Shown here: piece after piece, positions 6,750 through 47,217 of the stretch | Layout of the letters: every line of letters starts with the position of its first letter | How positions within the stretch are numbered: position 1 is the first letter of the stretch | Source: a virus | DNA length: 48,922 nucleotides | IMG/VR virus record: IMGVR_UViG_3300037153_000047 | Span: 1-48,922 of that record | Reading direction: 5' to 3' (one strand) | Translations under genes and position numbers: made by a program | The notes under the pieces: model-generated | The model's input: only the letters and a program-made list of their open reading frames with translations | Databases searched by the model: none | What the model was told of the DNA's origin: nothing

Positions 6750-8135
6750 ATGGATCCTAACTATGAGCCAGTGACGCTTCTCGAAGCGTTCGAACAGGGG
6801 CCACTCGTTCACACATTCCTGCGTGATACATTTTTCGGTGGCCGTGAATTTCCGCCGACGAACATGGTGGAATTTGATTTCAAGCGCGGACGCCGGAAGA
6901 TGGCACCATTCATTGCGCCGCTGATCGGCGGCAAAATCGTGGAGCGCGAAGGATACGAGACACGGTTCTTCCGTGCGCCTCGTCTCGCGCCAGTTCGTAA
7001 TTTGCGCGTGCCAGATTTGGAGGCGCGAATGATCGGCGAGACAATCTACAGCGGTCGGACGCCTGCGGATCGCGCTGCGGAACTGCTGGCCGACGACGCG
7101 ATCATGCTCGACGAAATGATTACTCGTCGGGAGGAATGGATGTGCAGGGAAGTGCTGGTCAACGGAGCAATCACGGTGACTGCCGACCACGGCTACGTGG
7201 AGCGGATCAGCTTCCTCGAAAGCGCCTCCGGCGCAGTCGACAACCATTTCACGCCGTTGAACGGCAAATGGGACACGCCGGCCTCGACGCCACTCGGAGA
7301 TTTCGAGGCGGCGCGGTTGAATCAAATTCGCGTGTCAGGTGTCGCGCCGAACGTGGCGCTGCTTGGAACAACTGCGGCTGCGGCTTTCGTGAACAACGAG
7401 AACGTGGCCAAGTTTCTGGACAGCACACGCTTCCAATGGGCGACGGTCGCGCCGATCATCCAAAGTGATTCGGTGGTGCGACTGGGTCGGGTGCCAGGGC
7501 TGGAACTTTACACCTACGCCGAATACTTCGAGGACGACCTTGGCCAGCTGTTCCCGATGTTGCCGGACAATCTGGTTCTGCTTGCGTCGACCAACGTGCA
7601 GAACAAGATCGTTTACGGCGCATACACGCAGCTCGAGGATGCGAAGGCAAAACGCTACGTGACTTATCAGACCAGCAGGATTCCGTTCGTCTACGGAGAC
7701 GAGGAAAACGGTCACCTGTTTTATCGTCTGACTTCGTGTCCGTTGCCGATGCCGAACGACATTCTGGCGTTCACGCTGATCGACGCGGTCGATCCGGCGA
7801 CGACGCTCGACCGTGATCCGACGCGGGTGCCGTATCTGAAACGGCTCGGTGAAGAAAAGGGCGAGCGCGAGGAAGGCGAAGGGCCAGAACTGACCGAGGG
7901 CAGCGATCACACGCCACAGGAGGAAAGCGATTCGAAGTTCGGCAAGCTTCCTGGTGGGCGCACTCGCGGCGAGGGTGAAGGCGAGGAATCGGACGGAAAC
8001 GATACCGACCTCGATTCGATGACCGTCGACGAACTGCGACAGACCGCAGACGACGAAGGCGTGGACATTCCGAGCCACGCAACCAAAGCGGAAATCAAAA
8101 AGGCGATCAAGAAAGCGAGGAAAGCCAACCAATAG
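6750..8135 (+). CDS. Major capsid protein, lambda E family, with charged C-terminal extension
   Basis: This 461-aa protein forms the head shell (HK97 fold expected). Family features are the opening LLEAFEQGPLVHTFLRDTFF, then FDFKRGRRKMAPF, and ADRAAELLADDAIMLDEMITRREEWM. The core ends near residue 360. The last 100 or so residues are unusual: an acidic Glu/Gly stretch followed by a short helical domain (MTVDELRQTADDEGVDIPSH, then a Lys-rich helix). That domain looks like the HeH/Rho-N/SAP-type fold often found on nucleic-acid-associated proteins. It might be displayed on the capsid or face the DNA. Confidence 0.92.
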   Translation: MDPNYEPVTLLEAFEQGPLVHTFLRDTFFGGREFPPTNMVEFDFKRGRRKMAPFIAPLIGGKIVEREGYETRFFRAPRLAPVRNLRVPDLEARMIGETIYSGRTPADRAAELLADDAIMLDEMITRREEWMCREVLVNGAITVTADHGYVERISFLESASGAVDNHFTPLNGKWDTPASTPLGDFEAARLNQIRVSGVAPNVALLGTTAAAAFVNNENVAKFLDSTRFQWATVAPIIQSDSVVRLGRVPGLELYTYAEYFEDDLGQLFPMLPDNLVLLASTNVQNKIVYGAYTQLEDAKAKRYVTYQTSRIPFVYGDEENGHLFYRLTSCPLPMPNDILAFTLIDAVDPATTLDRDPTRVPYLKRLGEEKGEREEGEGPELTEGSDHTPQEESDSKFGKLPGGRTRGEGEGEESDGNDTDLDSMTVDELRQTADDEGVDIPSHATKAEIKKAIKKARKANQ

Positions 8136-8140
8136 ATCGG

Positions 8141-8168
8141 AAGGTTAATTAAATTTAGTTAAAGCTTC
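8141..8168 (+). repeat. 28-bp dyad repeat, copy 3
   Basis: The left arm is AAGGTTAATTAAA and the right half TTTAGTTAAAGCTT, with one C-to-T change. It begins 6 bases after the capsid gene stop and ends 5 bases before the next start codon, which has no Shine-Dalgarno of its own. Confidence 0.9.
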
Positions 8169-8545: not shown

Positions 8546-9115
8546 ATGGTGGCCCTCACGATCAGCGGCGATCAGATGATAAGACTCGAGAAAGCTGTCG
8601 GTCAGATCAAAGACGGCGTGCCGAAAGCGCTGGCCGCTGCGATAAACCGCACACTGAACAAGGGGCGGACAGAAGTGAAACGTGCAATCAGGCAGGACTA
8701 CTTGATTAAAGCGAAAGACATTCCTGCCAAGGTGCGCGGCGTTAATCCGACGCGACTATACAACGGGCAATTGTTCATCAAAGATACAATGCTCGACTTG
8801 AACAAGTTTCCGTTCAGACCACGAACGGTGCAGCGCCGGAAAAACAAAAAGATGTTGTTCGTCCAGGTGAAAACGACAGGCGGCAAACTGATGCCGCACG
8901 CATTCGTAGCGGCGATGCCGAGCGGATACGTCGGGCCATTCGAGCGGCGGGACAAACCGAGTCTGCCAATCGACAAGCTGATGGCGATTGCTACAGCGAT
9001 TATGGCGAGTCAACCACACGTGATGACAACGGTTCGCAAAGCCATGGACGAAACGTTGGACACAGCAATCGGGCAACAAATCAACAGGGCCATGGCGCGA
9101 GTGAACAAAAAATGA
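8546..9115 (+). CDS. Minor tail protein Z-like (GpZ family)
   Basis: This 189-aa protein has the start typical of the prophage minor tail protein Z family: a helix with VPKALAAAINRTLNKGRTEV, then KRAIRQDYLIKAKDI. Lambda gpZ acts in tail completion at the head-proximal end. The protein is basic. It overlaps the next small gene by 4 bp (ATGA). Confidence 0.75.
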   Translation: MVALTISGDQMIRLEKAVGQIKDGVPKALAAAINRTLNKGRTEVKRAIRQDYLIKAKDIPAKVRGVNPTRLYNGQLFIKDTMLDLNKFPFRPRTVQRRKNKKMLFVQVKTTGGKLMPHAFVAAMPSGYVGPFERRDKPSLPIDKLMAIATAIMASQPHVMTTVRKAMDETLDTAIGQQINRAMARVNKK

Positions 9116-9270
9116 GTGCACAAAAAATTCTGCTTGCGTTGGCGATCATTGCATTCGTCATCGGCGCGTTGCTTCCGGTAATCGCGCCAGCTGGATCGCC
9201 GAGGAACATCAACTGGCTGTGTCTCGGACTGGCGTTCGCTACGGGCGCGTGGTTCGTGACACTGCACTGA
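9112..9270 (+). CDS. Small two-helix membrane protein
   Basis: This 52-aa frame has two hydrophobic segments, LLALAIIAFVIGALLPVIA and WLCLGLAFATGAWFVTL, joined by a short polar loop. Its ATG overlaps the gpZ stop. The role is unknown. A membrane protein in the connector block is odd; a part in lysis or DNA entry is possible but unsupported. Confidence 0.65.
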   Translation: MSAQKILLALAIIAFVIGALLPVIAPAGSPRNINWLCLGLAFATGAWFVTLH

Positions 9271-9274
9271 ACGT

Positions 9275-9427
9275 ATGGGATTAATCCTGCTTATCATTTT
9301 GATCCTGCTACTGGTGGGCGCGGTTCCGCGCTGGCCTTACAGTCGGTCGTGGGGTTACGGGCCGAGCGGCATCCTGTTCGTTCTGTTAATCGTCATCATT
9401 ATCATGCTGCTGCTTGGACACCTCTGA
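9275..9427 (+). CDS. DUF3309-like small membrane protein
   Basis: This 50-aa protein has a hydrophobic helix, the motif AVPRWPYSRSWGYGPSG, then a second hydrophobic helix. This closely matches the short bacterial DUF3309 family, recognised by the PRWPYS..WGYGPSG signature; its function is not known. It follows the preceding membrane gene by 4 bases, so the two form a pair inside the virion operon. Confidence 0.75.
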   Translation: MGLILLIILILLLVGAVPRWPYSRSWGYGPSGILFVLLIVIIIMLLLGHL

Positions 9428-9430
9428 TCT

Positions 9431-10111
9431 ATGGGACTTCCTGCGCCAATCACAAATCCGGACTTGGGAGTTCGGACGCTGTCTGCTTTCGACCTCGAGA
9501 AAACTCTGGTGGCGTTTATCACGCAAATCTTCACGGACGCATACAGGCTGGACAATCCCAAACTTAACCTGGCGCAGCCGGACACCGTGCCGTTCGATCC
9601 GACTGGACGGGCGCAGACGTTGGAACAGAAGGTGCCGCCGCAAGTGGTCAGAGGGCGGGTGCCGCGAACGGTGACAGGCGAAATTGAAGTGGACAAATTG
9701 CCGGACGTTCCGGCGATCATTGTGCAGGCTGTGGCTGGCACAGTGGAAAAGGATCAGACCAACGTGACCGTGCGAATTTTGTTGAACGCTTACGACGAAA
9801 ATCCGGACTCTGGCGGCTACCAGGATTTGACGAACATGGTGGAAGCGCTCTCAATTGCGCTGACCAGCTACGGGCAGGGTGCAATCGACCACGCTTATCC
9901 GATCATTCTGCCGATTGAATGGCGACACATCGAGGCGCACACGTTTCCGCATTTCGTCGCGGAAATGACTACACACTGGCAATTACCGAGCGGACGGCCG
10001 ATGCCGGACTTGACAGAAGGAATGATTCCTGCGGAACAGATCGGGATTCGCACGCAGTTTAATGATTTTCCGGACAATCCGGAAGTCTATCACTTTCCGC
10101 CCATCGAATGA
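9431..10111 (+). CDS. Tail terminator or neck protein candidate
   Basis: This 226-aa protein lies between the gpZ homologue and the sheath, in the position of tail terminators and neck proteins. The segment VRILLNAYDENPDSGGYQDL followed by NMVEALSIALTSYGQGAID is a pattern I associate with phage tail-completion proteins, but the family is not certain. It overlaps the next gene by 4 bp. Confidence 0.5.
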   Translation: MGLPAPITNPDLGVRTLSAFDLEKTLVAFITQIFTDAYRLDNPKLNLAQPDTVPFDPTGRAQTLEQKVPPQVVRGRVPRTVTGEIEVDKLPDVPAIIVQAVAGTVEKDQTNVTVRILLNAYDENPDSGGYQDLTNMVEALSIALTSYGQGAIDHAYPIILPIEWRHIEAHTFPHFVAEMTTHWQLPSGRPMPDLTEGMIPAEQIGIRTQFNDFPDNPEVYHFPPIE

Positions 10112-10428
10112 AGAAATTAAAAGGACAACTAATTTACGTCGGGCCGATGTTTCCGCAGATCGGCTTGCAGCGCGGTTGCATTTTCCGGAACGGCGTGCAC
10201 AAAAATTTCTACAAGCTGTTCGAAGTTTGTCCGGCGTTCGCGGAACTGTTTGTGCCAGTGGCAAAATACGCCGCCATCCGTCGAGAACTTGCATTCGACA
10301 TCGGTCGGCAGATGTGCGGCACCACTGGCAAATACGTTACTTTCTATCGTGAAGTCGAAAGCTGGCTCGCAAAACGAGCGAAGAAAACAAACGAAACAAC
10401 AAACACAGGAGTAAAAATCCATGCCTAA
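10108..10428 (+). CDS. Hypothetical protein before tail sheath
   Basis: This 106-aa basic protein is not recognised. It overlaps the genes on both sides (4 bp and 8 bp), so it is translated with the neck and sheath genes. Its sequence (YVGPMFPQIGLQRGCIFRNG) suggests a small folded tail-assembly or connector protein. Confidence 0.6.
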   Translation: MKKLKGQLIYVGPMFPQIGLQRGCIFRNGVHKNFYKLFEVCPAFAELFVPVAKYAAIRRELAFDIGRQMCGTTGKYVTFYREVESWLAKRAKKTNETTNTGVKIHA

Positions 10429-11920
10429 TCTCGGACCTTTTCCACACGGCGTCAGCTGGGCTGACGTTCCTACAAGCGTAATCTCGCCAGTTCCGGCTTA
10501 CCCAGGAATCAACGTGGTTTTCGGGGCAGCGCCGCTGCATTTGACAAAGGACGGAAAAGATTTCGTCAATGTCCCACGCATTTACAACAGCTACGAGGAA
10601 GCGGTGGCCGAACTCGGTTACTCGGATGACTGGGACAAATACGATATCTGCGAGCACATGGATTCTGTGTTCGTGGAGTTCGGCGTTTATCCGGTCATCT
10701 ACGTGGCCTGCAACGATCCGGAAGCTGGCGCTGTGGCGATCACGCCGAAAACGGTGACGCTGGTCAATGGCCAAGTGGACACACAAGAGGAATTGATTGC
10801 GTGGACAATCGTGGTCAAAGATCAAGCGGGCGCGACGACTTACGAGGAAGGAAAAGACTACGTTTTGTCGCACTCGAAAACCAATACGACAATCATTACG
10901 CGATTGGCGACAGGGACGATTCCTGCGGACAATTCGCAACTGCAACTCTCAGGGTCAAATCCAAGCACAACGCCGATTACGTCGGACGACATTATCGGCG
11001 GCATCGACATTGACACTGGCAAGCGCACCGGACTGGAAGTGATCGAAGACGTTTTCCAAAAGACGGCGCGCGTGCCAGGTGTGATCGTTTGCCCGAAGTT
11101 TTCACGCGATCCGATGGTCGCTGCGGCAATGGAAGCGAAAGCGGAGAACATCAACGGTTGTTTTGCCTGCACATGCTTGGTCGACGTGGACGCTTCGGCG
11201 GTAACAAAGGCGCAGGACGTGAACGAGTGGAAAACGGTGAACAACATTGTTTTCCCTCGACAGCAATGCTTGTTCGGTCGTCCGGCACTGGTGGGAACAA
11301 GCGGGCGCAAGGTATTCAATTTCGCCAGCCAGCAAGGGCCACTGATGCAATGGACAGACACGTATCGCGGGAACGGCCTGCCGTATCATTCGCCATCGAA
11401 CAAAAACTTGCGCATGAACGCGCTGCTGTTGGATGATGGGAGCGAACTGCCGATGCATCTAATGGACGCCAACATGCTGAACAGTCAGGGTGTGGTGACG
11501 GCGCTAAACTGGATCGGCGGCTGGCGTTCGTGGGGCAACCGGACGGCTGCGTATCCGGCCAACTCGGACGTCAAAGACATGTTCATTCCGGTGCGCAGAA
11601 TGTTTGACTACATCGGAAACACAATCGTGCTGACCATCTGGCAGAAGGTTGACGAGCCTGGAAACCGCAGGCTGATCGACGCAATCGTAAACAGCTTGCA
11701 GCTGTGGCTGGACGGTCTGACCAACACGGAAGCGTTGCTCGGTGCGCGGGTGGAATTTCGTCACGACGAAAATCCGACCACGGAAATTCTGAACGGCCAC
11801 TACGTGTTTCACGTTTACATCGCTGTGCCGACACCTGCGGAGTGGCTCGATTTTCGGATCGAATACTGGATTCCCTACATTCAGCAATTGTGGCCGGCGG
11901 ACGACCAGCTGGAATCTTAA
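10421..11920 (+). CDS. Contractile tail sheath protein (P2 FI type)
   Basis: This 499-aa protein polymerises around the tube and contracts during infection. The N-terminus (HGVSWADVPTSVISPVPAYP) and the C-terminal EWLDFRIEYWIPYIQQL fit phage sheath proteins, as does the mid-region VFQKTARVPGVIVCPKFSRD. Its length is normal. ACAGGAG precedes the ATG. The tube gene follows, separated by dyad repeat copy 4. Confidence 0.9.
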   Translation: MPNLGPFPHGVSWADVPTSVISPVPAYPGINVVFGAAPLHLTKDGKDFVNVPRIYNSYEEAVAELGYSDDWDKYDICEHMDSVFVEFGVYPVIYVACNDPEAGAVAITPKTVTLVNGQVDTQEELIAWTIVVKDQAGATTYEEGKDYVLSHSKTNTTIITRLATGTIPADNSQLQLSGSNPSTTPITSDDIIGGIDIDTGKRTGLEVIEDVFQKTARVPGVIVCPKFSRDPMVAAAMEAKAENINGCFACTCLVDVDASAVTKAQDVNEWKTVNNIVFPRQQCLFGRPALVGTSGRKVFNFASQQGPLMQWTDTYRGNGLPYHSPSNKNLRMNALLLDDGSELPMHLMDANMLNSQGVVTALNWIGGWRSWGNRTAAYPANSDVKDMFIPVRRMFDYIGNTIVLTIWQKVDEPGNRRLIDAIVNSLQLWLDGLTNTEALLGARVEFRHDENPTTEILNGHYVFHVYIAVPTPAEWLDFRIEYWIPYIQQLWPADDQLES

Positions 11921-11926
11921 CAACGG

Positions 11927-11952
11927 AAGGTTAACTAAAATTAGTCAAAGCT
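11927..11952 (+). repeat. 28-bp dyad repeat, copy 4
   Basis: This copy has two changes: AAGGTTAACTAAA on the left and a right end AGTCAAAGCT followed by AA. It lies between the sheath and tube genes. Unlike other left-arm copies, it is followed by a good Shine-Dalgarno (GGAGG) 20 bases before the next ATG end. Confidence 0.85.
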
Positions 11953-11972
11953 AAAACGGAGGCGAAAACAAA

Positions 11973-17012: not shown

Positions 17013-17756
17013 ATGGGACGCAAAAATTTACTCTCGGACACGGACTACACCAGCGGTCACGACAATCGCTACGGTGCGACGGTGCTGATGGGATTTGTCT
17101 CCAAGATCGAATGCACGGACAAACGCTCGAGCGTGCGGGTGATTTTGCCGGACAGACTGGATCATCAGGACAATCCGGTCATCACGAAACCTGTTCCGGT
17201 GTTGCAAGTGGCGAGCGCGGCAAAGAAAAGTTTTTGTGTGCCGCGACTGGGCGACACGGTGGCATTAATGAAAATGCCAAACTCGACCAGCGATTATTTT
17301 GTGATCGGGAGTTTTTACACGCCGCGCAATCCGCCGCCTGTGTCTGATCCGATGCTGGATCACACCACCTACGACGACGGGTCGATCATGGAGTTCAACG
17401 CCTCCAACGGCACGCTGACCTGGAAACTGAAAGGCGACGTTCTATGGACCAACGAGAAGGGCGCGACGCTGAAATTTAAGGAAGCGGTGACGATTGAAAC
17501 GGATGGCGACGTAAACATCAAGCCAGTGGGCGGGAGCGTGAACATCGAGGCAGGCGGACTGATTTCCCTCAAAGGGACGATGAAATTCGAAGGCAACATC
17601 GATCATACTGGCAACATGGTGACGCATGGGACGCACACGGACAATCTCGGGCATCACACCAGTTCGCAGCGGGACGAACGGATTGACCAACTGGAAAAAC
17701 GTGTGGCCAGATTGGAGCGAATCATTGAAACTCTGACCGGAGGACAACAGCTTTAA
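17013..17756 (+). CDS. Baseplate spike protein V (P2 GpV)
   Basis: This 247-aa protein would form the membrane-piercing spike. It has an OB-fold-like N-terminal part (VSKIECTDKRSSVRVILPD, FCVPRLGDTVALMKMPN), a beta-helix-like repeat (WKLKGDVLWTNEKGATLKFK), a THTDNLGHHT segment with possible metal-binding His, then a short coiled coil (IDQLEKRVARLERIIETL). The stop codon lies inside dyad repeat copy 5. Confidence 0.9.
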   Translation: MGRKNLLSDTDYTSGHDNRYGATVLMGFVSKIECTDKRSSVRVILPDRLDHQDNPVITKPVPVLQVASAAKKSFCVPRLGDTVALMKMPNSTSDYFVIGSFYTPRNPPPVSDPMLDHTTYDDGSIMEFNASNGTLTWKLKGDVLWTNEKGATLKFKEAVTIETDGDVNIKPVGGSVNIEAGGLISLKGTMKFEGNIDHTGNMVTHGTHTDNLGHHTSSQRDERIDQLEKRVARLERIIETLTGGQQL

Positions 17757-17775
17757 TTAAATTTAGTCAAAGCTT
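17749..17775 (+). repeat. 28-bp dyad repeat, copy 5 (near-palindromic form)
   Basis: Here the left arm is AGCTTTAATTAAA rather than AAGGTTAATTAAA, so the copy is close to a full palindrome with TTTAGTCAAAGCTT. The stop codon of gene V (17754-17756) lies in it, and it ends 6 bases before the next ATG, which lacks a Shine-Dalgarno. Confidence 0.9.
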
Positions 17776-23232: not shown

Positions 23233-23259
23233 AAGGTTAATTAAATTTAGTCAAAGCTT
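23233..23259 (+). repeat. 28-bp dyad repeat, copy 6
   Basis: The left arm is AAGGTTAATTAAA and the right half TTTAGTCAAAGCTT. The start codon of gene J follows at once, with no spacer and no Shine-Dalgarno. Confidence 0.9.
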
Positions 23260-25370: not shown

Positions 25371-27328
25371 GTTTAGCACAACAAGTTTTTACTGATGCAG
25401 GCAAATCGATGCTCGGTCGCGCACAGGCCAGCGAGACATTGACGATTTCAAAAATTGTTTTGGGCGACGGGAGCGCAAGTCAGGACAGCGATTACTTCGG
25501 GCGCACGACGCTGTTCAACAAACGAATGGACGTCACAATTACGTCGAAGACCGACCTCGGCGGCGGCGTGCTTCTGGTGGAAGGATCGTTTCTCTCGAGC
25601 GCTGCGCCAGCTGCATTTCAGCTGCGCGAACTGGGAATCCAAGCGCACATCGGCGCGGAGGCTGATCGGCTTTACTGCGCGTCGAACGTTTACACTGATC
25701 CACCGGACACGATCGATCCGTCCAGTCCGAGCGTGCAGGCGTTCAAAATCAAACTGATTGTCGACCGGATTCCGAGCGCACAGCTGGTCATACAGATCGG
25801 GCCGACTGAAAATATTACGGGCGAAAACGTGGGATCATCTGCGAACGGGCCAGGATGGTTCAAAGAGGCGGTTGCAAATCTGATGCGCTTCAAGCGTGCA
25901 AAGGCTGGCGCTGGAATTTCAATCGTGGAGGATGCCAGCGGCGATTTCATTACCATAGCGGAAAAGCAGCTGACGCAAAATTTCGATCTTTACGTGCCAG
26001 CAAACAATCCGGATTACGTGGCGGGGCCGAACACTGCTGTCTTCGCGGACATACAAGCGGCACACGATTATCTTTTGCAGTTCCGGATTCCGGCGAACAT
26101 CACGGCCACGATTCACGTTCACGAATTGAATCACGCCATAATGAATTTCGGCGCAGGCGGAACTTCGATTGCGTTTTCGCATCCGGACTCGAAACAGATT
26201 GCGCTGATCGGCGAGGCGCGGGTCGACAAGGCGGTGACAAAAATCCAGTGGGTCAGCAACACACAAAAAGATGTGACTTGCACAGACGTAACGGGTCTCG
26301 CTGTGGGAATGTATGTCTGGCTCGCGCTCAGTCCTGGTTACGGCGGCGGCTGCCAGATTGCCAGCGTCAACACATCGACAAAAGTGGTGCGCGTGAACAT
26401 CTGGAATCAGAGCGGCAAAGCGCCTTACAACACGCTGGACACGAACGCGAATCGGTTGTCGTATCTGCCGACGAAACTGCAAATCAGTCCGAATCCGACT
26501 GTGCTCGGACAGGGAATCAGCTGTCCGAATGGCATCCAGAGCATTCAAAACATTCTGGTGATCGGACATTCCAACGCCAATCTGTCGAACACATATGACC
26601 AGATCAATTACCTATCATACGCGTTCACGCCGAACAGCGGTTCATTGATTAATTGCATGGCGGTCAATGCGCGGCGGGGTCTAAGCGGTGGGACTGGCGC
26701 GGTGTCTCTTAGCGGTGACTGTGTGTTCGCCAACTGCGGTTTCGGGATCGTTGGCGGTTCGCAAACATTGGCATACTACGACGCCTACACTTACATCAAC
26801 GGCTGCGGACAAGGCGTGCTGTCCGGTGGCACATTCGCGCTCGGTTCGATTGTGGCGGGCAACAACAACACACAAGTCTGGCTGAACCATAATCTTTACG
26901 GCGCGAACATTACGGGCGGTGTAGGTTTGATCGGCGGCACATGGTGGGTCATCAACAACTGGACTGGGATACAGGCGACATCGGTAGGAAGCATCAGTCT
27001 CGGCGCTGGCTACGGCTCGTTTCTTTTGAACAACACGATTGACATTCGCGCCCAGGGGCAAAGCTACGTCCGATACGACCGTTGGGAATTGCAGATGCCG
27101 ACTTGCGATCCGGCTGTGCATCAGATCACGCCACCTCCGGCGGGCGCGGATTATTCCTACGAGGGCATCGGCAACCAAAACGCCTGCATCTACGTGCTGG
27201 ACACAGGCAGCGGCACGCGAATGGGCGCTCCGGAACTGACAGGCTCGGACAAAGATTTCCACGACAGGGCGATGCTGATGCTATCGGAGAACAGCGCGGC
27301 TAACGAGAACTTGACAAGCGAAGGTTAA
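25367..27328 (+). CDS. Baseplate-attached tail fibre H with beta-helix end
   Basis: This 653-aa protein begins with a GpH-like baseplate-binding part (VFTDAGKSMLGRAQASETL, LTISKIVLGDGS). The second half (from about 230) has many short Gly/Asn-rich repeats typical of right-handed beta helices and depolymerase-like fibres (NCMAVNARRGLSGGTGAVSL). The start at 25367 overlaps gene I by 4 bp. The stop codon lies inside dyad repeat copy 7. Confidence 0.8.
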   Translation: MSLAQQVFTDAGKSMLGRAQASETLTISKIVLGDGSASQDSDYFGRTTLFNKRMDVTITSKTDLGGGVLLVEGSFLSSAAPAAFQLRELGIQAHIGAEADRLYCASNVYTDPPDTIDPSSPSVQAFKIKLIVDRIPSAQLVIQIGPTENITGENVGSSANGPGWFKEAVANLMRFKRAKAGAGISIVEDASGDFITIAEKQLTQNFDLYVPANNPDYVAGPNTAVFADIQAAHDYLLQFRIPANITATIHVHELNHAIMNFGAGGTSIAFSHPDSKQIALIGEARVDKAVTKIQWVSNTQKDVTCTDVTGLAVGMYVWLALSPGYGGGCQIASVNTSTKVVRVNIWNQSGKAPYNTLDTNANRLSYLPTKLQISPNPTVLGQGISCPNGIQSIQNILVIGHSNANLSNTYDQINYLSYAFTPNSGSLINCMAVNARRGLSGGTGAVSLSGDCVFANCGFGIVGGSQTLAYYDAYTYINGCGQGVLSGGTFALGSIVAGNNNTQVWLNHNLYGANITGGVGLIGGTWWVINNWTGIQATSVGSISLGAGYGSFLLNNTIDIRAQGQSYVRYDRWELQMPTCDPAVHQITPPPAGADYSYEGIGNQNACIYVLDTGSGTRMGAPELTGSDKDFHDRAMLMLSENSAANENLTSEG

Positions 27329-27347
27329 TTAAATTTAGTCAAAGCTT
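27321..27347 (+). repeat. 28-bp dyad repeat, copy 7
   Basis: The left arm is AAGGTTAATTAAA and the right half TTTAGTCAAAGCTT. It contains the fibre stop codon (27326-27328) and ends 4 bases before the next ATG. It marks the border between structural genes and the DNA-modification region. Confidence 0.9.
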
Positions 27348-27351
27348 TTCA

Positions 27352-28164
27352 ATGAAAACCAAATCTGCGAAAGCGCCGCGCCGCGCCGCGCCCTCGATGA
27401 CGCGGGCGGCGGGCGGTGCTAACGGCGGTCACGAAATCGAATACTGGACGCCGGACGATCTTGAGCCATACGCACGCAATCCGAACATTCATCCGGAGGA
27501 ACAAATCAAACTGATTTGCGATTCCATCGAGCAGTTCGGATTCACTACGCCGATTCTATGCGATGAAAACGGAATGATTCTGGCTGGACACGGCCGCCAG
27601 CTGGCAGCGGTGCAATTGAATTTGTCGCACGTGCCTGTGATACGGCTCAAAGGATTGTCGGAAGCGCAGAAACGCGCCTACATCATGGCAGACAATCAGA
27701 TTGCGCGGACAAGCGATTTCGATTTCGATTTGATCGCGGCGGAATTGAAATCCATCGCCGACGAATATCCGGACTTCGAACTTTCCGTGATCGGGTTCGC
27801 AGCTGCGGACTTGACGAAATTTCTGGATCCGCTTTTCGGGAAACAACATCCGGACACTGGCAAGCTGCTGGAAGTTTTGCGGGTGTCGTTTGACGATCCG
27901 AAACACAAGGTGGAGCGCGGGCAGATTTGGGACTGCATCGATCACGCTGTCATTTGCATGGACGTTTTCGACGAATGGGAGAAATGGAAGGACGAACTGC
28001 AACCTGGCTCGGTCTTTCTTCCGTATGCGGGGCCGCTGGTCTTGTTAGGCGAGCGAGCCAAAACGACGCGGTTCGTGATCGTGAATCCACAGGAATTCAT
28101 TTGCGCGCTGATCTTGGACAAGTTCACGGAAGCGAAACTCGGGATTCCGACCTTGCGCAAATGA
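27352..28164 (+). CDS. ParB/Srx-domain protein, probable partner of DpdA
   Basis: This 270-aa protein has a Lys/Arg/Ala-rich start and then a ParB/sulfiredoxin-type domain at about 25-120 (LEPYARNPNIHPEEQIKLI, ILAGHGRQLAA, YIMADNQIA). The last 85 residues (VERGQIWDCI, GSVFLPYAGPLVLLGE, TRFVIVNPQEFICALILDKF) look like the shell of a DNA methyltransferase without its catalytic DPPY, i.e. a degenerate domain. In the bacterial Dpd system a ParB/Srx-domain protein, DpdB, works with DpdA to insert preQ0 into DNA. Here the gene overlaps dpdA by 4 bp, so the same partnership is likely. Confidence 0.75.
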   Translation: MKTKSAKAPRRAAPSMTRAAGGANGGHEIEYWTPDDLEPYARNPNIHPEEQIKLICDSIEQFGFTTPILCDENGMILAGHGRQLAAVQLNLSHVPVIRLKGLSEAQKRAYIMADNQIARTSDFDFDLIAAELKSIADEYPDFELSVIGFAAADLTKFLDPLFGKQHPDTGKLLEVLRVSFDDPKHKVERGQIWDCIDHAVICMDVFDEWEKWKDELQPGSVFLPYAGPLVLLGERAKTTRFVIVNPQEFICALILDKFTEAKLGIPTLRK

Positions 28165-29078
28165 CAAAGACCGGCGGCGACGCGTTCGATCCAAAAGATC
28201 GCCAGCTTTATTTCATCGCCATTAACGCGGACAAGCTACTGCGTGTGGAAAACTTGAATCGCCACCTGCTGTGCGCGGTGAATGAAATCAATGGCGACGC
28301 GCAGCTGGACATTTTGCGCGGCATGATGAAACGCGGGACGCGCATCTTCATCGACTCCGGCATTTTCAATCTGACCATGGAACACGCACGCAAACACGAC
28401 TGCCACATGAACGAGGCGCTCGGACTTGCGCCAGACGAGATCGACGGGTTCGATAATTTGTTCGACCGCTACGTGGAAGTCTGCGGCAAGATCGGCGGCG
28501 ATTCATGGGGCTACATCGAGATCGATCAGGGCGGACGGGAAAACAAAATCAAGACTCGGGCGAAGCTGGAAAAACTGGGGCTGCGTCCGGTTCCGGTTTA
28601 TCATCCATTGAACGACGGATGGGATTACTTCGACTACTTGGCTACGCGATACGACCGCATCTGTTTCGGAAACGTGGTGCAGGCGGAAATCGCGGAGCGA
28701 CAACGTCTGATTTCGACTGCGTTCATTCGGCAAAAGAAATATCCCAAGCTGTGGATTCATCTTCTCGGCGTGACACCGAGCGAGCTATTGCACTCGTGTC
28801 CGTCGTGCAGCTGCGATTCCTCGACCTGGTTGTCGTCGATGCGTTGGGGTTTTTCTGACGCAACCTGCTTCGGGAAGCGCGTCGCCGGCGGGTTCGGGCC
28901 GCAGCTGACTTATCGCTATGGCGCGGCGGCACAAGAGGAAAATCCAGACCGGAACGCCAGCTACATCAAAGGTGAAAAGCTGTTCGCCTACGACGCGGAA
29001 ATCATGGGCCGGAACTGGCAGGCATACGTTCACGATTACACATCAGCGCAAGGTGCGTCTGTGCCAAAAAGATTGTAG
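28161..29078 (+). CDS. dpdA: DpdA-like DNA deazaguanine transglycosylase
   Basis: This 305-aa protein belongs to the tRNA-guanine transglycosylase superfamily in the form found in phages, which swaps guanine in DNA for a 7-deazaguanine. The DSGIF motif at 65-69 carries the usual active-site Asp. Further conserved features are YIEIDQGG (about 118-125), VYHPLNDGWDYFDYL, RICFGNVV, and the Cys-rich CPSCSCDSSTWLSS (213-226), with Asp219 a candidate nucleophile. The start at 28161 overlaps the ParB-like gene by 4 bp; a longer frame from 27927 is shadow. QueD, QueE and FolE follow downstream. Confidence 0.8.
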   Translation: MTKTGGDAFDPKDRQLYFIAINADKLLRVENLNRHLLCAVNEINGDAQLDILRGMMKRGTRIFIDSGIFNLTMEHARKHDCHMNEALGLAPDEIDGFDNLFDRYVEVCGKIGGDSWGYIEIDQGGRENKIKTRAKLEKLGLRPVPVYHPLNDGWDYFDYLATRYDRICFGNVVQAEIAERQRLISTAFIRQKKYPKLWIHLLGVTPSELLHSCPSCSCDSSTWLSSMRWGFSDATCFGKRVAGGFGPQLTYRYGAAAQEENPDRNASYIKGEKLFAYDAEIMGRNWQAYVHDYTSAQGASVPKRL

Positions 29079-29116
29079 AACGTCGCCGGAGACTAACGAT
29101 CAAAAAGAGAGCGCAC

Positions 29117-29491
29117 ATGACAAAAATTTTTATCACTACGCGGTTCGAGGGATTCCATTGCTGGCCGGACGCGCCGGACGAAGTGGCTTTCCTGCGGTCG
29201 CCGCATCGCCACATTTTCCATGTGCGCTGCTGGCGGACTGTGGATCACGACGACCGCGACATCGAGTTCATTCAATGGAAACGGCAAATTGATTTTTCCA
29301 TCCGCACGCTGGCAGGAGAAAACGACACAATGAAATGGTCCTGCGAAACGTGGGCGCGTGCGATTGGCGGGACAGTGGACGCGGACACGGTGGAAGTCTC
29401 CGAGGACGGGGAGAACGGGGCGGTCTGGATTGGCGGCGAGCGGTTAGACAAAGTCTTGGAAGCGGTCGCGCAGCGCCGGAAACAGGGTTAA
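29117..29491 (+). CDS. QueD/PTPS-like protein candidate
   Basis: This 124-aa protein is not clearly assigned. Its start (FEGFHCWPDAP, then HRHIFHV, DHDDRDIEFIQWK) has one His (14) and then a His-x-His (30, 32). That matches the spacing of the zinc ligands in QueD and 6-pyruvoyl-tetrahydropterin synthases (F..H, then HGH). The catalytic Cys of QueD is not at the usual place; there is a Cys at 15. I recall similar phage proteins annotated as unknown. It lies between dpdA and the true queD, which supports a link to deazapurine chemistry. Confidence 0.5.
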   Translation: MTKIFITTRFEGFHCWPDAPDEVAFLRSPHRHIFHVRCWRTVDHDDRDIEFIQWKRQIDFSIRTLAGENDTMKWSCETWARAIGGTVDADTVEVSEDGENGAVWIGGERLDKVLEAVAQRRKQG

Positions 29492-29600
29492 AACACGTTT
29501 TTATGGCTCGGGTGCAGTGGTCCCACTGGTTTGAGGTTGAAACGATTCTAGGGGCATTTGTGGCGGTTTGGGGAACGGTAACGGGCTGCGGGCGACTGGC
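29490..29600 (+). repeat. Large intergenic repeat, copy C
   Basis: This copy shares with copies A and B the stretch ACGTTTTTATG, then GGGTGCAGTGGTCC, GAAACGATTCTAGGGGCATT and GTGGCGGTTTGGGGAACGG. A CTAGG box lies at 29548-29552; the upstream box of A and B is not recognisable. It overlaps the 3' part of a possible minus-strand gene. Confidence 0.65.
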
Positions 29601-29770
29601 ACGCAGGAACGCAGGCCGATGCGCCGACCACACACAGGGCAGTTCGGTCGTTCTGGTTCCGGTTTGACAACTGCGACTGGTGGCGCGGCTGGACGGGACG
29701 CCGCCAGCGCGGCAGCGCGGATTTCTTCGGGCGTGGTTCCGAGAGATTCAAAAATGTCTGCGAGTTTCAT
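29501..29770 (-). CDS. Possible small zinc-ribbon protein
   Basis: This 89-aa frame starts MKLADIFESLGTTPEEIRAA, a plausible helical start, then an Ala/Pro-rich linker and CPVCGRRIG, a single zinc-ribbon half. The last 30 or so residues are encoded by large repeat C and look less like protein, so the true gene may end differently. The dyad repeat copy 8 lies 13 bases upstream of its start on this strand. Confidence 0.4.
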   Translation of the reverse strand: MKLADIFESLGTTPEEIRAAALAASRPAAPPVAVVKPEPERPNCPVCGRRIGLRSCVPVARSPLPFPKPPQMPLESFQPQTSGTTAPEP

Positions 29771-29782
29771 TCGCAGATTTTG

Positions 29783-29810
29783 GAAGGTTAATTAATTTCA
29801 GTCAAAGCTT
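29783..29810 (+). repeat. 28-bp dyad repeat, copy 8
   Basis: The left arm is AAGGTTAATTAA and the right half TTTCAGTCAAAGCTT. No plus-strand start codon follows. The neighbours are a minus-strand gene start on the left and a minus-strand terminator on the right, yet the repeat keeps its plus orientation. Confidence 0.88.
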
Positions 29811-29819
29811 TTCGGGCAT

Positions 29820-29851
29820 AAAAAAACGCCGCCGGATTTCTCCGACGGCGC
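29820..29851 (-). terminator. Rho-independent terminator of the histone-like gene
   Basis: A 10-bp stem with one mismatch (29827-29836 with 29841-29850) encloses a 4-base loop and is followed on the minus strand by a T run. It lies about 25 bases after the minus-strand stop at 29876. The plus direction has only a short T run. Confidence 0.75.
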
Positions 29852-29875
29852 TTTTGGGTTTGCTTGTGTCAGCGG

Positions 29876-30361
29876 TTACGCTGCGGCTGCAACGAGTTCT
29901 TTCAGCTGTTTCTTCGTCACAGGAGCGGGCTTGCCGCGCTCGCCGTGGCGACCAGCTTGCACAAACGTGCGGATGGCGTTGACACTGGCTTTCGGCTCGA
30001 CCTTCTGGATCGCTGCCACCGCTTGCGCGGGCATGAATCCGTGCTTGCCGAATGCGCGGGCAATGGCAATCATGGAGTGGCCGAGGATTGCACGAAGCGC
30101 TTTTTTCTTCGCGGGCTTCGCGGCTTTGGTCGTCGCGGTTTTTTTGGCTGTCTTTTTCATGGTTTTGTTCACTGCGTTTTGTAGGTCTGCAACCGTGATG
30201 CCACAGACTTGTTTGGCGATTTCTTCGCCGTGGTTGTCGAGGATCACGCCTCGAATGTCGTCGCGTGTGGGTTTTTTAATGCCTGCGGCGACGCAATAGG
30301 CGCGGGCATCTTTCAACATTTCTGCTTTATCTGCTGCACTGACTGTTTGCTTGTTTTTCAT
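29876..30361 (-). CDS. Histone-H1-like Lys/Ala-rich protein
   Basis: This 161-aa basic protein has a folded N-terminal part (ADKAEMLKDARAYCVAAGIK), a middle tract of Lys, Ala and Thr (MKKTAKKTATTKAAKPAKKK), then a helical end (RAILGHSMIAIARAFGKHGF, SVNAIRTFVQAGRHGERGK) that could be a winged-helix. The linker resembles the tails of bacterial H1-like proteins that compact DNA. It is alone on the minus strand with its own terminator. The ATG at 30361 is preferred; a GTG at 30376 would add 5 residues. Confidence 0.7.
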   Translation of the reverse strand: MKNKQTVSAADKAEMLKDARAYCVAAGIKKPTRDDIRGVILDNHGEEIAKQVCGITVADLQNAVNKTMKKTAKKTATTKAAKPAKKKALRAILGHSMIAIARAFGKHGFMPAQAVAAIQKVEPKASVNAIRTFVQAGRHGERGKPAPVTKKQLKELVAAAA

Positions 30362-30444
30362 ATGCCTGTCTGTCACTCCAGATTCGGGAAAGCCAACAAG
30401 TTTTTTAAACTTTTTTCATGGTTATTACCATTCCGGCGTAAATG

Positions 30445-30500
30445 TCCTTGCGTGCCTCCCACGCGGGATTTTACTTGAAATTATTTTCGGCGGCTAAATA
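30445..30500 (+). promoter_or_regulatory. Hairpin element X in divergent gap before QueD
   Basis: The perfect hairpin GCGTG-CCTCC-CACGC (30450-30464) is followed by GGGATTTTAC and then a TTTTCGGCGGC block. A similar order (CGTGG-CTC-CCACG, GAGGGATTTACAC, TTTTGGGCGGC) occurs at 32902-32940 before the HNH gene. Promoter-like hexamers TTGAAA (30475) and AATACT (30497), 16 bases apart, overlap this element. A regulatory role is inferred. Confidence 0.4.
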
Positions 30501-30509
30501 CTTGCCCAC

Positions 30510-30959
30510 GTGGTCACCTGCACAAAGGTCTTCGAGCGGTTTCCGTTCGCCCACAGGGCGCACAGGCATGACGGACATTGCAAATTGATCCACGGTCACA
30601 ATTGGTCGTTCGCGGTGACGTTCGCCGCACGCGAGACTGATGCTAACGGGTTCGTGATGGACTTCGGGAAGTTGAAAGCGTTAAACGACAAGCTGAAAGA
30701 ATTATTCGATCACACGTTCGTGGTGAACGAAAGCGATCCGCTGCGGCTGGACTTCGAGCGGTTTCTGACCCTGCACGGCATCGCCAACCTGGTTGTGGTT
30801 CCGGACTGTTCGTGCGAAGGAATCGCCAAGCTGGTCTGGCAGATTTCAAACGCGGTCGCACTGAAAGAAACTGCGGGGCGCGTGATGGTGCGGAAAGTGG
30901 TGGTCCATGAAGACAATTTAAACAGCGCGACTTACGCGCCTGTGGTGACGACAGCATGA
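30510..30959 (+). CDS. queD: QueD, 6-carboxytetrahydropterin synthase
   Basis: This 149-aa enzyme would convert dihydroneopterin triphosphate (the FolE product) to 6-carboxy-5,6,7,8-tetrahydropterin. Zinc ligands are probably His15, His28 and His30 (FAHRAHRH, CKLIHGHNW), and the catalytic Cys is Cys24. Further family features are GFVMDFGKLKALNDKLKE, LFDHTFV and the late CSCEGIAKLVW Glu. The only available start is GTG at 30510, because a stop codon lies 5 codons upstream. It overlaps the next gene by 4 bp. Confidence 0.88.
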   Translation: MVTCTKVFERFPFAHRAHRHDGHCKLIHGHNWSFAVTFAARETDANGFVMDFGKLKALNDKLKELFDHTFVVNESDPLRLDFERFLTLHGIANLVVVPDCSCEGIAKLVWQISNAVALKETAGRVMVRKVVVHEDNLNSATYAPVVTTA

Positions 30960-31189
30960 ATATTTGGGACTACTATTTTAACGAGGACGAATTCAAGCTG
31001 GTCTGTGCCAGCTACGTGTTTTACTGGCAGCAAGTGAACGCGCTCGAGGATTATTTTTGCGACTGTTTTCATAGCTACGGCAAAGCGGTGCCGGACAATC
31101 TGATTGCGGAGCGCGACCGACTGAAAAGACGAATCACCGACGAACGTGCGAAGCTGCAAAAGATTCTCGAGCATGATAAGAATCTCTGA
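30956..31189 (+). CDS. Hypothetical protein between QueD and QueE
   Basis: This 77-aa protein is not recognised. It is rich in aromatic residues at the start (MNIWDYYFNEDEFKLVCASY) and ends in a charged helix (ERDRLKRRITDERAKLQKIL). It overlaps queD by 4 bp and queE by 17 bp, so it is translated with the deazapurine genes. Confidence 0.65.
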   Translation: MNIWDYYFNEDEFKLVCASYVFYWQQVNALEDYFCDCFHSYGKAVPDNLIAERDRLKRRITDERAKLQKILEHDKNL

Positions 31190-31874
31190 AATTTTCGGGC
31201 CAGTGGTGCAGGGCGAAGGCGCACAGATCGGCGTGCCGACTGTGTTCGTTCGCGTGGGCGGCTGCGATTACAAATGCAGCTGGTGCGACACCATGTATGC
31301 GGTGGACACAAAGTTCGCCAAAGAATGGTTGCCAATGTCGGACACGGAAATTGCGCTCGAGATACAACGCCTCTCGGTGAAACCGATTCTGGTGACGCTC
31401 TCGGGCGGCAATCCTGCGCTTTATGATTTCGGTCTTTTGATTGCACGAATGCAAGAGGCTGGTTATCGCTTCACCATCGAGACACAGGGGAGCGTAGCGA
31501 AACCGTGGTTCGGTCTGCTCGATCACATGACGCTGTCGCCGAAACCGCCTTCGTCGGGCATGGTGACGAACTACGCCAGACTGTCCGAGTGCGTGTCATG
31601 GCTGGAACTGCCCAAGGTCAGTTTCAAAATCGTGGTGGCTGACGACGACGATTACGAATACGCACAAGACATTGGGCGGCGCTATCCGCATCACAAAATC
31701 TTTTTGCAGGTCTGCAATCCAATGGTGGGCGGCATCGACTTGAACGGACAGACCAACATGCTGTTGTCAAAATTGCAATGGCTGTCGAACAAGGTGCTGG
31801 CTGACAGATGGTTTTCGGCAACGGTGTTGCCACAACTTCACGTTCTGATGTATGGGAACAAACGTGGCGTCTAA
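31173..31874 (+). CDS. queE: QueE, 7-carboxy-7-deazaguanine synthase
   Basis: This 233-aa radical SAM enzyme would rearrange carboxytetrahydropterin to 7-carboxy-7-deazaguanine (CDG). The cluster motif CxxxCxxC is CDYKCSWC (31-38) in the typical GG-C...WCDT setting. The opening [17 protein letters not shown] and the [12 protein letters not shown]-binding stretch are family features. The start at 31173 gives the usual N-terminus; a frame from 31146 adds 9 unlikely residues. It overlaps the next gene by 23 bp. Confidence 0.9.
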
Positions 31875-32721
31875 AACAATTCTAACTTGGCCGGACATTC
31901 GGCGGCTGATCGAGAAACGACTTCCGGCGGACAAAAAAGTTTACGGTGTTCCACGCGGCGGTTCATGCGTGGCTGCGTTGCATGGAAACATGACAGACGA
32001 TCCAACACAGGCCGAAGTGATCGTCGACGACATAATCGACAGCGGGAGGACACGCGACAAATGGACGAAACTTTTTCCGGCTACACCGTTTCTGGCGCTG
32101 ATCGACAAGACCGATACGCAGTCACAATTTGCTCGGGATGGTTGGATTCACTTTCCATGGGACGCCACGGAGTCGAGCGACATCGAAGATCATGTCGTGC
32201 GCGTGCTGGAATACATCGGCGAAGATCCTCGGCGCGAGGGATTGGCCGAAACACCTGCACGTGTGGTTCGGTCGTGGGCGGAGATTTTCGCTGGCTACAA
32301 GACGTCACCAGAAGCGATTCTGGACAAAGAGTTCGAAGCGGATGGCTACGACGAATTAATTATCTGCCGGAACATCGACTTCTATTCTACTTGCGAACAC
32401 CACATGCAACCGTTCTTTGGTCGTGCGCACGTCGCCTACATTCCGAAACGAAAAGTGGTCGGCTTGTCCAAGCTTGCGCGTCTGGTCGACGTATTCGCTC
32501 GCCGCCTGCAAATCCAGGAACGATTGACCGCGCAGATCGCGGACGCGCTCGAGCAACATCTGCAACCGCTCGGCGTGGCTGTGCTGGTGGAGGCGCAACA
32601 TTTCTGCATGGTCTGTCGCGGAGTGCGCAAACAAAACAGCTGCATGACGACCAGCAAATTGACTGGCCTGTTTCGAAGTGCGGAAGCGCGAGGAGAATTT
32701 CTGGCTCTGGTGGCAAGATGA
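31852..32721 (+). CDS. folE: Phosphoribosyltransferase-GTP cyclohydrolase I fusion
   Basis: This 289-aa protein has two parts. Residues 1-105 look like a type I phosphoribosyltransferase: [14 protein letters not shown] (30-43) and the PRPP-binding loop [12 protein letters not shown] (56-67). Residues 111-289 are GTP cyclohydrolase [14 protein letters not shown], the zinc motif CEHH (181-184), [20 protein letters not shown], and [16 protein letters not shown] with Cys252 as the likely third ligand. FolE starts deazapurine synthesis by turning GTP into dihydroneopterin triphosphate. The fused transferase is unusual; it might recycle guanine released by DpdA. An alternative start is GTG at 31864. 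Confidence 0.88.
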
Positions 32722-34480: not shown

Positions 34481-34508
34481 AAGGTTGATTAAATTTAGTC
34501 AAAGCTTC
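34481..34508 (+). repeat. 28-bp dyad repeat, copy 9
   Basis: The left arm is AAGGTTGATTAAA and the right half TTTAGTCAAAGCTT. It lies upstream of a minus-strand gene but keeps the plus orientation. Large repeat D follows within 45 bases. Confidence 0.9.
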
Positions 34509-38682: not shown

Positions 38683-38711
38683 GAAGCTTTAATTAATTTT
38701 AATCAAAGCTT
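38683..38711 (+). repeat. 28-bp dyad repeat, copy 10 (near-palindromic form)
   Basis: The left arm is AAGCTTTAATTAA and the right half TTTTAATCAAAGCTT, close to a perfect palindrome. Its right end overlaps the first two bases of a promoter-like -35 on the plus strand. On the minus strand it lies 30 bases upstream of the small acidic gene. Confidence 0.9.
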
Positions 38712-43024: not shown

Positions 43025-43237
43025 TCATGGCGGCAGATCGAATAGGTCTGCCGCCTCTTTTTTGATCTTGGTTTTGCTGCGCCGGAAGCTTTGATTAAAT
43101 TTAGTCAAAGCTTTTTTGCGACCGAACTTCGGGCATGGCGCATAAAGTTTCTGGTGACCGTCACGCCCCAAGACGTAGCCGCATTCACACGACCAGCGTC
43201 CTTGGGCGCACGTTAATTTGTGGGTCAACTCACGCAT
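43025..43237 (-). CDS. Small zinc-binding protein; dyad repeat inside
   Basis: In this 70-aa protein, residues 8-35 (LTCAQGRWSCECGYVLGRDG, YAPCP) carry four Cys in a zinc-ribbon pattern. The following residues (KALTKFNQSFR) are encoded by dyad repeat copy 11, in frame and without a stop. The tail is basic and then acidic. The start at 43237 overlaps the upstream stop. Confidence 0.65.
   Translation of the reverse strand: MRELTHKLTCAQGRWSCECGYVLGRDGHQKLYAPCPKFGRKKALTKFNQSFRRSKTKIKKEAADLFDLPP
43085..43112 (+). repeat. 28-bp dyad repeat, copy 11 (palindromic, intragenic)
   Basis: The left arm is AAGCTTTGATTAAA and the right half TTTAGTCAAAGCTT, differing from a perfect palindrome at one pair. 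It is the only copy lying well inside a reading frame. Confidence 0.92.
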
Positions 43238-46979: not shown

Positions 46980-47006
46980 AAGCTTTGATTAATTTTAGTC
47001 AAAGCT
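46980..47006 (+). repeat. 28-bp dyad repeat, copy 12 (near-palindromic form)
   Basis: The left arm is AAGCTTTGATTAA and the right half TTTTAGTCAAAGCT followed by AA. It overlaps the stop codon of the minus-strand gene at 47005 and lies beside the terminator. Confidence 0.88.
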
Positions 47007-47217
47007 AACTGCGTCCTGCGGGACAAGTCGGACTGACTGCGTCGCCGCATATGTCGCGGATTTCGCGTTCGGTGACAATGTCGATTGCCGCGTGCAATTC
47101 GGCGTCGCCGCTGAACGACTGGACGAATCCATCGTCGGTGCGGACTGTGCCGGATACACGCGCTGCTGTTTGGCCTTGCGGCGTAAACTCAATCGTGACC
47201 GAGAACGGTTTTTCCAT
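47005..47217 (-). CDS. Hypothetical small protein, 70 aa
   Basis: The product MEKPFSVTIEFTPQGQTAAR then VSGTVRTDDGFVQSFSGDAE looks like a compact beta sheet with a helix (AAIDIVTEREIRDICGD). AAAGGAAA precedes the ATG. No family recognised. Its transcript ends at the terminator downstream. Confidence 0.65.
   Translation of the reverse strand: MEKPFSVTIEFTPQGQTAARVSGTVRTDDGFVQSFSGDAELHAAIDIVTEREIRDICGDAVSPTCPAGRS

Follow-up and report, generated by a model that had tools for sequence, protein, structure and literature searches.

How might a phage that encodes most of a 7-deazaguanine pathway complete the modification of its DNA when QueC, the enzyme that converts 7-carboxy-7-deazaguanine (CDG) into preQ0, is missing from its record? 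This question is raised by positions 27352-32721 of IMGVR_UViG_3300037153_000047, an entire IMG/VR record of 48,922 bases (the window) from a phage of the contractile-tailed type, for which terminase, portal, head protein and tail sheath were found. The overall explanation that we find best, and slightly favour, is a preQ0-free 7-deazaguanine modification of phage DNA in which a paralogue of QueD would take the step of QueC and the displaced guanine would be salvaged. A first-pass annotation had named FolE, QueD, QueE and a DpdA-type protein, and all four were identified by profile matches between 28161 and 32721. It had overlooked the QueD paralogue, a phosphoribosyltransferase (PRTase) domain and a ParB-like partner of DpdA, whose gene at the start of the interval belongs to the cassette. 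The features are the following.

27321-27347, plus strand: near-palindromic 27-nt repeat just upstream of the cassette, one of 12 dispersed copies
27352-28164, plus strand: ParB-like protein, 270 residues (PHROG 498 and 620; PADLOC MTase_II)
28161-29078, plus strand: DpdA-type DNA-guanine transglycosylase, 305 residues (PHROG 887, E 8e-19; fold of tRNA-guanine transglycosylase, TGT)
28797-28814, plus strand: CPSCSC cluster in DpdA, beside the invariant D219
29117-29491, plus strand: QueD paralogue with a T-fold, 124 residues (fold match to E. coli QueD)
30510-30959, plus strand: QueD, 6-carboxytetrahydropterin (CPH4) synthase (PTPS, E 4e-25)
30956-31189, plus strand: small open reading frame (ORF) of 77 residues that overlaps both queD and queE (sole match PHROG 22219, E 0.002)
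31173-31874, plus strand: QueE, CDG synthase (TIGR03365, E 4e-89)
31852-32160, plus strand: xanthine/guanine-PRTase-like domain, the N-terminal part of a fusion (family profile against PDB)
32182-32721, plus strand: FolE (GTP cyclohydrolase I) domain of the fusion (PF01227, E 5e-73)

FolE, QueD and QueE would together lead from GTP to CDG. The FolE domain covers residues 111-287 of the fusion ORF, QueD has Cys24, the HGH motif, Asp67-His68 and Glu103 all in place, and the NCBIfam match of QueE lies above the cut-off and includes the CxxxCxxC motif of radical S-adenosylmethionine enzymes. The previous statement that no QueC is visible in the window was borne out: a PF06508 search, positive in 12 of 14 control genomes, found none in the 48.9 kb record and gave no candidate for a diverged QueC. 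No QueF was found in the record either, the sole signal being the fold that it has in common with FolE, below the cut-off. A sister record of 57.8 kb (G002), whose DpdA is 79% identical to that of the window, is also without QueC.

The same picture was obtained with the relatives of this DpdA, which we found in 48 other viral contigs and in 11 genome loci (one of them a fragment only) of Streptomyces, Kitasatospora, Amycolatopsis, Bradyrhizobium, one cyanobacterial bin and two gammaproteobacterial bins. The order ParB-DpdA-QueD paralogue-QueD-(PRTase)-QueE is found in nearly all of the 48 viral contigs and in 10 genome loci, and as 41 of the 48 viral records contain FolE (PF01227), the gene set that would make CDG out of GTP is complete in most cases. 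QueC is missing from 46 of the 48 viral records, and the two that have it (G027 and G040) are both without the QueD paralogue. In a single lineage (L027 and L059), QueC lies directly downstream of dpdA, in the exact slot of the paralogue. Counted by lineage (90% clusters), about 33 have the paralogue and none of these has QueC, and QueC is present in two of the four without the paralogue (Fisher p ~0.01, computed with 32 paralogue lineages); two changes in QueC state have to be assumed along the DpdA tree. Isolated phages behave alike: among 12 with the paralogue there was no full-length QueC, with one partial match over the cut-off (Vibrio phage D479), and all seven comparable isolates without the paralogue have QueC. 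Phages CAjan, Iggy, VpKK5 and Me-ZS1 share FolE, QueD, QueE and a homologous DpdA with the window cassette but differ in that QueC stands beside DpdA, that the QueD paralogue is absent and that no ParB gene is annotated adjoining dpdA. As far as these sequences tell, QueC and the QueD paralogue are mutually exclusive. At the family level, it is well supported that the pathway ends at CDG rather than at preQ0, as the first-pass annotation had considered, and we hold it to be quite probable that the product is independent of QueC.

The gene that replaces QueC in this slot has PHROG 17812 as its sole family match, and its sequence profile returned nothing useful from PDB; the assignment was settled by the fold. 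The AlphaFold2 model, built from an alignment of 36 relatives (pLDDT 92.6), has E. coli QueD as its best neighbor among solved structures (TM 0.71-0.74, E 6e-6; Z 12.2, root-mean-square deviation 2.6 over 105 residues), and the paralogue profile matches the profile of the cassette QueDs with E 1.8e-6. Invariant in the alignment are H14, H30, H32, C76 and E77, and, judged by pattern, the three His residues fit the zinc site of E. coli QueD, and its ring-binding Glu (in the SCE motif) is kept as well. The paralogue differs from E. coli QueD in lacking the Cys at the catalytic position and the Asp-His pair, as there is no conserved counterpart of C24, D67 and H68, which are invariant in the cassette QueDs. 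Because these catalytic residues are missing, sequence and model identify the gene as a QueD paralogue and not as a second QueD. In some phages it is part of larger arrangements: it forms the C-terminal portion of a longer ORF in phage MA9V-3 (L078, 4452-5333) and in Bakedbeans (L085, 4125-5276), and in ACP17, X1, BUCT-ZZ01 and PA5oct (L069, L077, L081, L082) it adjoins phrog_10773 proteins and/or weak glycosyltransferase matches, so that the base may be further decorated in these four.

Mainly because QueC and the paralogue swap in one slot, we consider it somewhat probable that both share CDG as substrate. The likeliest reaction of the paralogue would be the loss of the CDG carboxylate, giving 7-deazaguanine, which we suggest tentatively; the next likeliest role would be the delivery of unchanged CDG. 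Phages with CDG or 7-deazaguanine in their DNA as deoxynucleosides (dCDG, dDG) have reportedly been described by Cui et al. 2023, who are said to have predicted a CDG decarboxylase, DpdL, and the products expected for the window are the same. The paralogue may be this DpdL, in which case the novelty would be reduced to the ParB part, the PRTase part and the slot exchange. The first-pass annotation had considered that CDG itself is inserted, and this stands as one of two possible products, as the presence of the paralogue in the QueC slot suggests a prior change of CDG. If dCDG is formed directly, the paralogue would act only as a carrier or regulator, or as a DpdA subunit that confers specificity. 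We regard this as rather unlikely: QueE is indeed the last recognisable enzyme, with no QueC or QueF in the record, but the paralogue, by pattern, retains all three zinc-site His residues and the ring-site Glu, and its replacement by QueC in one lineage suggests an enzyme acting on CDG. A gene set like that of the window is known from Mycobacterium phage Bipper, which has DpdA, FolE, QueD and QueE without QueC and for which a CDG modification was suggested (Hutinet et al. 2019, PMC6884629); here, the likeness is to the published description only.

Alternatively, a host QueC could finish the pathway, and preQ0 or its amide would be inserted (dPreQ0 or dADG). Many hosts have QueC, among them the Bradyrhizobium and the cyanobacterium whose genomes carry relatives of the cassette, and some relatives encode it themselves. 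However, QueC is missing exactly where the paralogue occurs, and seven cassette-bearing actinobacterial genomes (four Streptomycetaceae and three Amycolatopsis, one of the seven being a complete Streptomyces chromosome) contain neither a full-length QueC nor a TGT. Because both are missing there, the sequences make host preQ0 very unlikely in these seven genomes, in which an external uptake is possible, and completion by the host is on the whole improbable. Weak QueC matches in the actinobacteria comprise about 60 residues inside frames of 540-970 residues, and we rejected them as probable other ATP-pyrophosphatase proteins such as AsnB. Both loci checked (L053 and L058) have phage genes next to the cassette, either for terminase, portal and capsid or for tail and endolysin. 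The same genomes bear on the idea that the genes raise queuosine in host tRNA, or are decaying cargo, and that the DNA is unmodified. QueD and QueE do serve queuosine too, but actinobacterial hosts without TGT cannot make it, every reading frame is intact, and the linkage of dpdA and the ParB-like gene is conserved over divergent phages, which leaves this idea barely credible.

The preferred reading further demands an enzyme that exchanges the base. The gene at 28161-29078 is, by sequence and model, a DpdA-type transglycosylase with a predicted base exchange in DNA. PHROG 887 matches all 34 aligned members of the family, in which D65, D122 and D219 are invariant; a putative correspondence to the two catalytic Asp of TGT, D102/D280 (base recognition and nucleophile), is by motif. 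A DpdA profile found nothing useful in PDB, and again the fold was decisive: the AlphaFold2 model (pLDDT 88.8) has TGTs as its best matches, with Z 16-17 (top 16.9) over about 265 residues. With tblastn, the window DpdA had no match at E 1e-5 among 50,697 INPHARED phages; a close relative of it finds distant INPHARED DpdAs (about 25% identity), those of the CAjan, Iggy, VpKK5 and Me-ZS1 systems being 24-27% identical to it with E down to 1e-11, and the relative L060 matches with E 2e-10 the DpdA of CAjan, a phage with demonstrated deazaguanine. The Cys cluster, formerly pointed out as unusual, is present, but only in three of the 34 aligned DpdAs (window, L001 and L002), and the idea of a metal site was rejected on this ground. 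In Streptomyces and Kitasatospora cassettes (L052, L056, L057 and L058, ~9080-10870), dpdA is duplicated in tandem.

The ParB-like gene immediately precedes dpdA in most relatives, and in the window its stop overlaps the dpdA start (ATGA). Its product (PHROG 498 and 620, E 1e-43 and 2e-42) resembles the N-terminal portion of ParB-fused methyltransferases according to PHROG 498, PADLOC and tblastn; the PADLOC MTase_II match (E 3e-26) covers residues 28-205 and positions 9-184 of the 436-position model. A catalytic methyltransferase domain is absent from the 270 residues, as the PHROG 498 match stops at 211 of 633 and there is no DPPY, and the protein thus consists of a ParB/Srx domain and a short methyltransferase-like tail. 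A transglycosylase adjoining a ParB-type protein is also found in the bacterial Dpd system, in which DpdA is accompanied by DpdB, a protein reported to be a ParB-like ATPase (PMC12839542). The window differs from that system, as the bacterial DpdA equivalog of NCBIfam (NF041059) gave E 0.04 and 12.8 bits against a cut-off of 200, and PADLOC returned no Dpd protein, only MTase_II, whereby it was not checked whether PADLOC holds a DpdB model. In the Fusobacterium phage phiFN37 (L074, 6013-7298), a ParB gene adjoins genes for a DpdA/TGT homologue and for a transporter of queuosine precursors, and synthesis genes are not nearby. In the cassette, the ParB-like protein would contact DNA and aid DpdA in exchanging guanine for CDG or for the product of the paralogue.

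What becomes of the expelled guanine may be indicated by the ORF at 31852-32721, a PRTase-FolE fusion whose first 100 residues belong to a PRTase-like family (13 members aligned). Against PDB, the family profile matches the purine PRTase 1vdm (E 1.6e-17) and the E. coli xanthine-guanine phosphoribosyltransferase (XGPRT, Gpt; E 1e-11 to 4e-11) over nearly the full length, and a single profile match includes the RGG loop, the phosphoribosyl pyrophosphate (PRPP) loop and the purine-site motif W-I-x-F-P-W-E. The window domain resembles both enzymes in its TW start, the RGG loop, the PRPP loop (DD..DSG.T) and W-I-x-F-P-W-E/D; it differs from them in having only about 100 residues, with part of the middle missing, and in its fusion to FolE. 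The curated family model NF006613 gave 24.4 bits with the window domain, at a cut-off of 138. The PRTase is either fused to FolE (window, L002 and L017) or encoded as a standalone gene near queD and queE, and it also accompanies QueC-bearing DpdA phages, namely VpKK5 and a Stenotrophomonas phage, both with the fusion as in the window, and the Flavobacterium phage immuto. As it occurs alongside QueC, a salvage of expelled guanine fits better than an action on CDG. The guanine would be converted to GMP by the XGPRT-like domain and thereby refill the GTP pool used by FolE, and we give such recycling an even chance. It is very improbable that the PRTase instead makes a ribonucleotide of CDG or deazaguanine that is reduced and incorporated by a polymerase, with DpdA acting on something else. 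The fusion to FolE would suit this, but most cassettes have no PRTase, the domain is found alike with and without QueC, and DpdA is present in every locus with its Asp positions invariant. Furthermore, 7-deazapurines lack N7, an atom that purine PRTases contact.

Several points weigh against the explanation that we favour. The mutual exclusion is drawn from two lineages with QueC in the DpdA clade and from non-independent isolates, the majority of the related records are fragments, and the relatives are not independent of each other. Two relatives (L003, 4838-5227; L024, 1669-2055) have a third kind of small gene in the paralogue slot after dpdA, with a GHSHF motif and no Pfam or PHROG match. 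Only about one locus in four has the PRTase, and several of these copies carry Arg where XGPRT has Lys. Bradyrhizobium, the host of one relative, has TGT in addition to QueC, and the host of the window phage may supply preQ0, so that the borrowing proposed by the first-pass annotation is possible for this phage. The most specific version, namely a preQ0-independent branch in which the paralogue replaces QueC and converts CDG, a methyltransferase-remnant ParB protein targets DpdA, and the XGPRT-FolE fusion couples the exchange to purine salvage, is put forward as a doubtful proposition.

The surroundings of the cassette have features of their own. The 27-nt near-palindromic repeat (like AGCTTTRATTAAATTTAGTCAAAGCTT) occurs in 12 copies (137-163, 2723-2749, 8141-8167, 11927-11953, 17749-17775, 23233-23259, 27321-27347, 29784-29810, 34481-34507, 38685-38711, 43087-43113 and 46981-47007), with none expected by chance, and several copies directly precede genes. 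The copy at 27321-27347 is probably a regulatory element. The palindrome of L001 and L002 is a different one, but its AGCTT..AAGCTT ends are the same and one of its copies again directly precedes the ParB gene; the palindromes of all three may be operator or promoter sites that evolve together with a regulator. Within the cassette, a minus-strand ORF of 166 residues (29876-30376) is kept only in the nearest relatives (L001-L003), and the final 50 residues of the head-protein ORF (6750-8132) match profiles of an Arc-like repressor and of endonuclease VII.

In summary, the alternative occupation of one slot by QueC or the QueD paralogue points to an enzyme that can be tested at the branch point where preQ0-type and CDG-type phage bases part, and the PRTase domain suggests a phage route for handling the guanine displaced by DpdA. 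As deazaguanines block many restriction enzymes, the cassette bears on the conflict between phage and host. Its presence in prophages of actinobacteria that seem unable to make preQ0 offers a setting in which the base could be identified cleanly.

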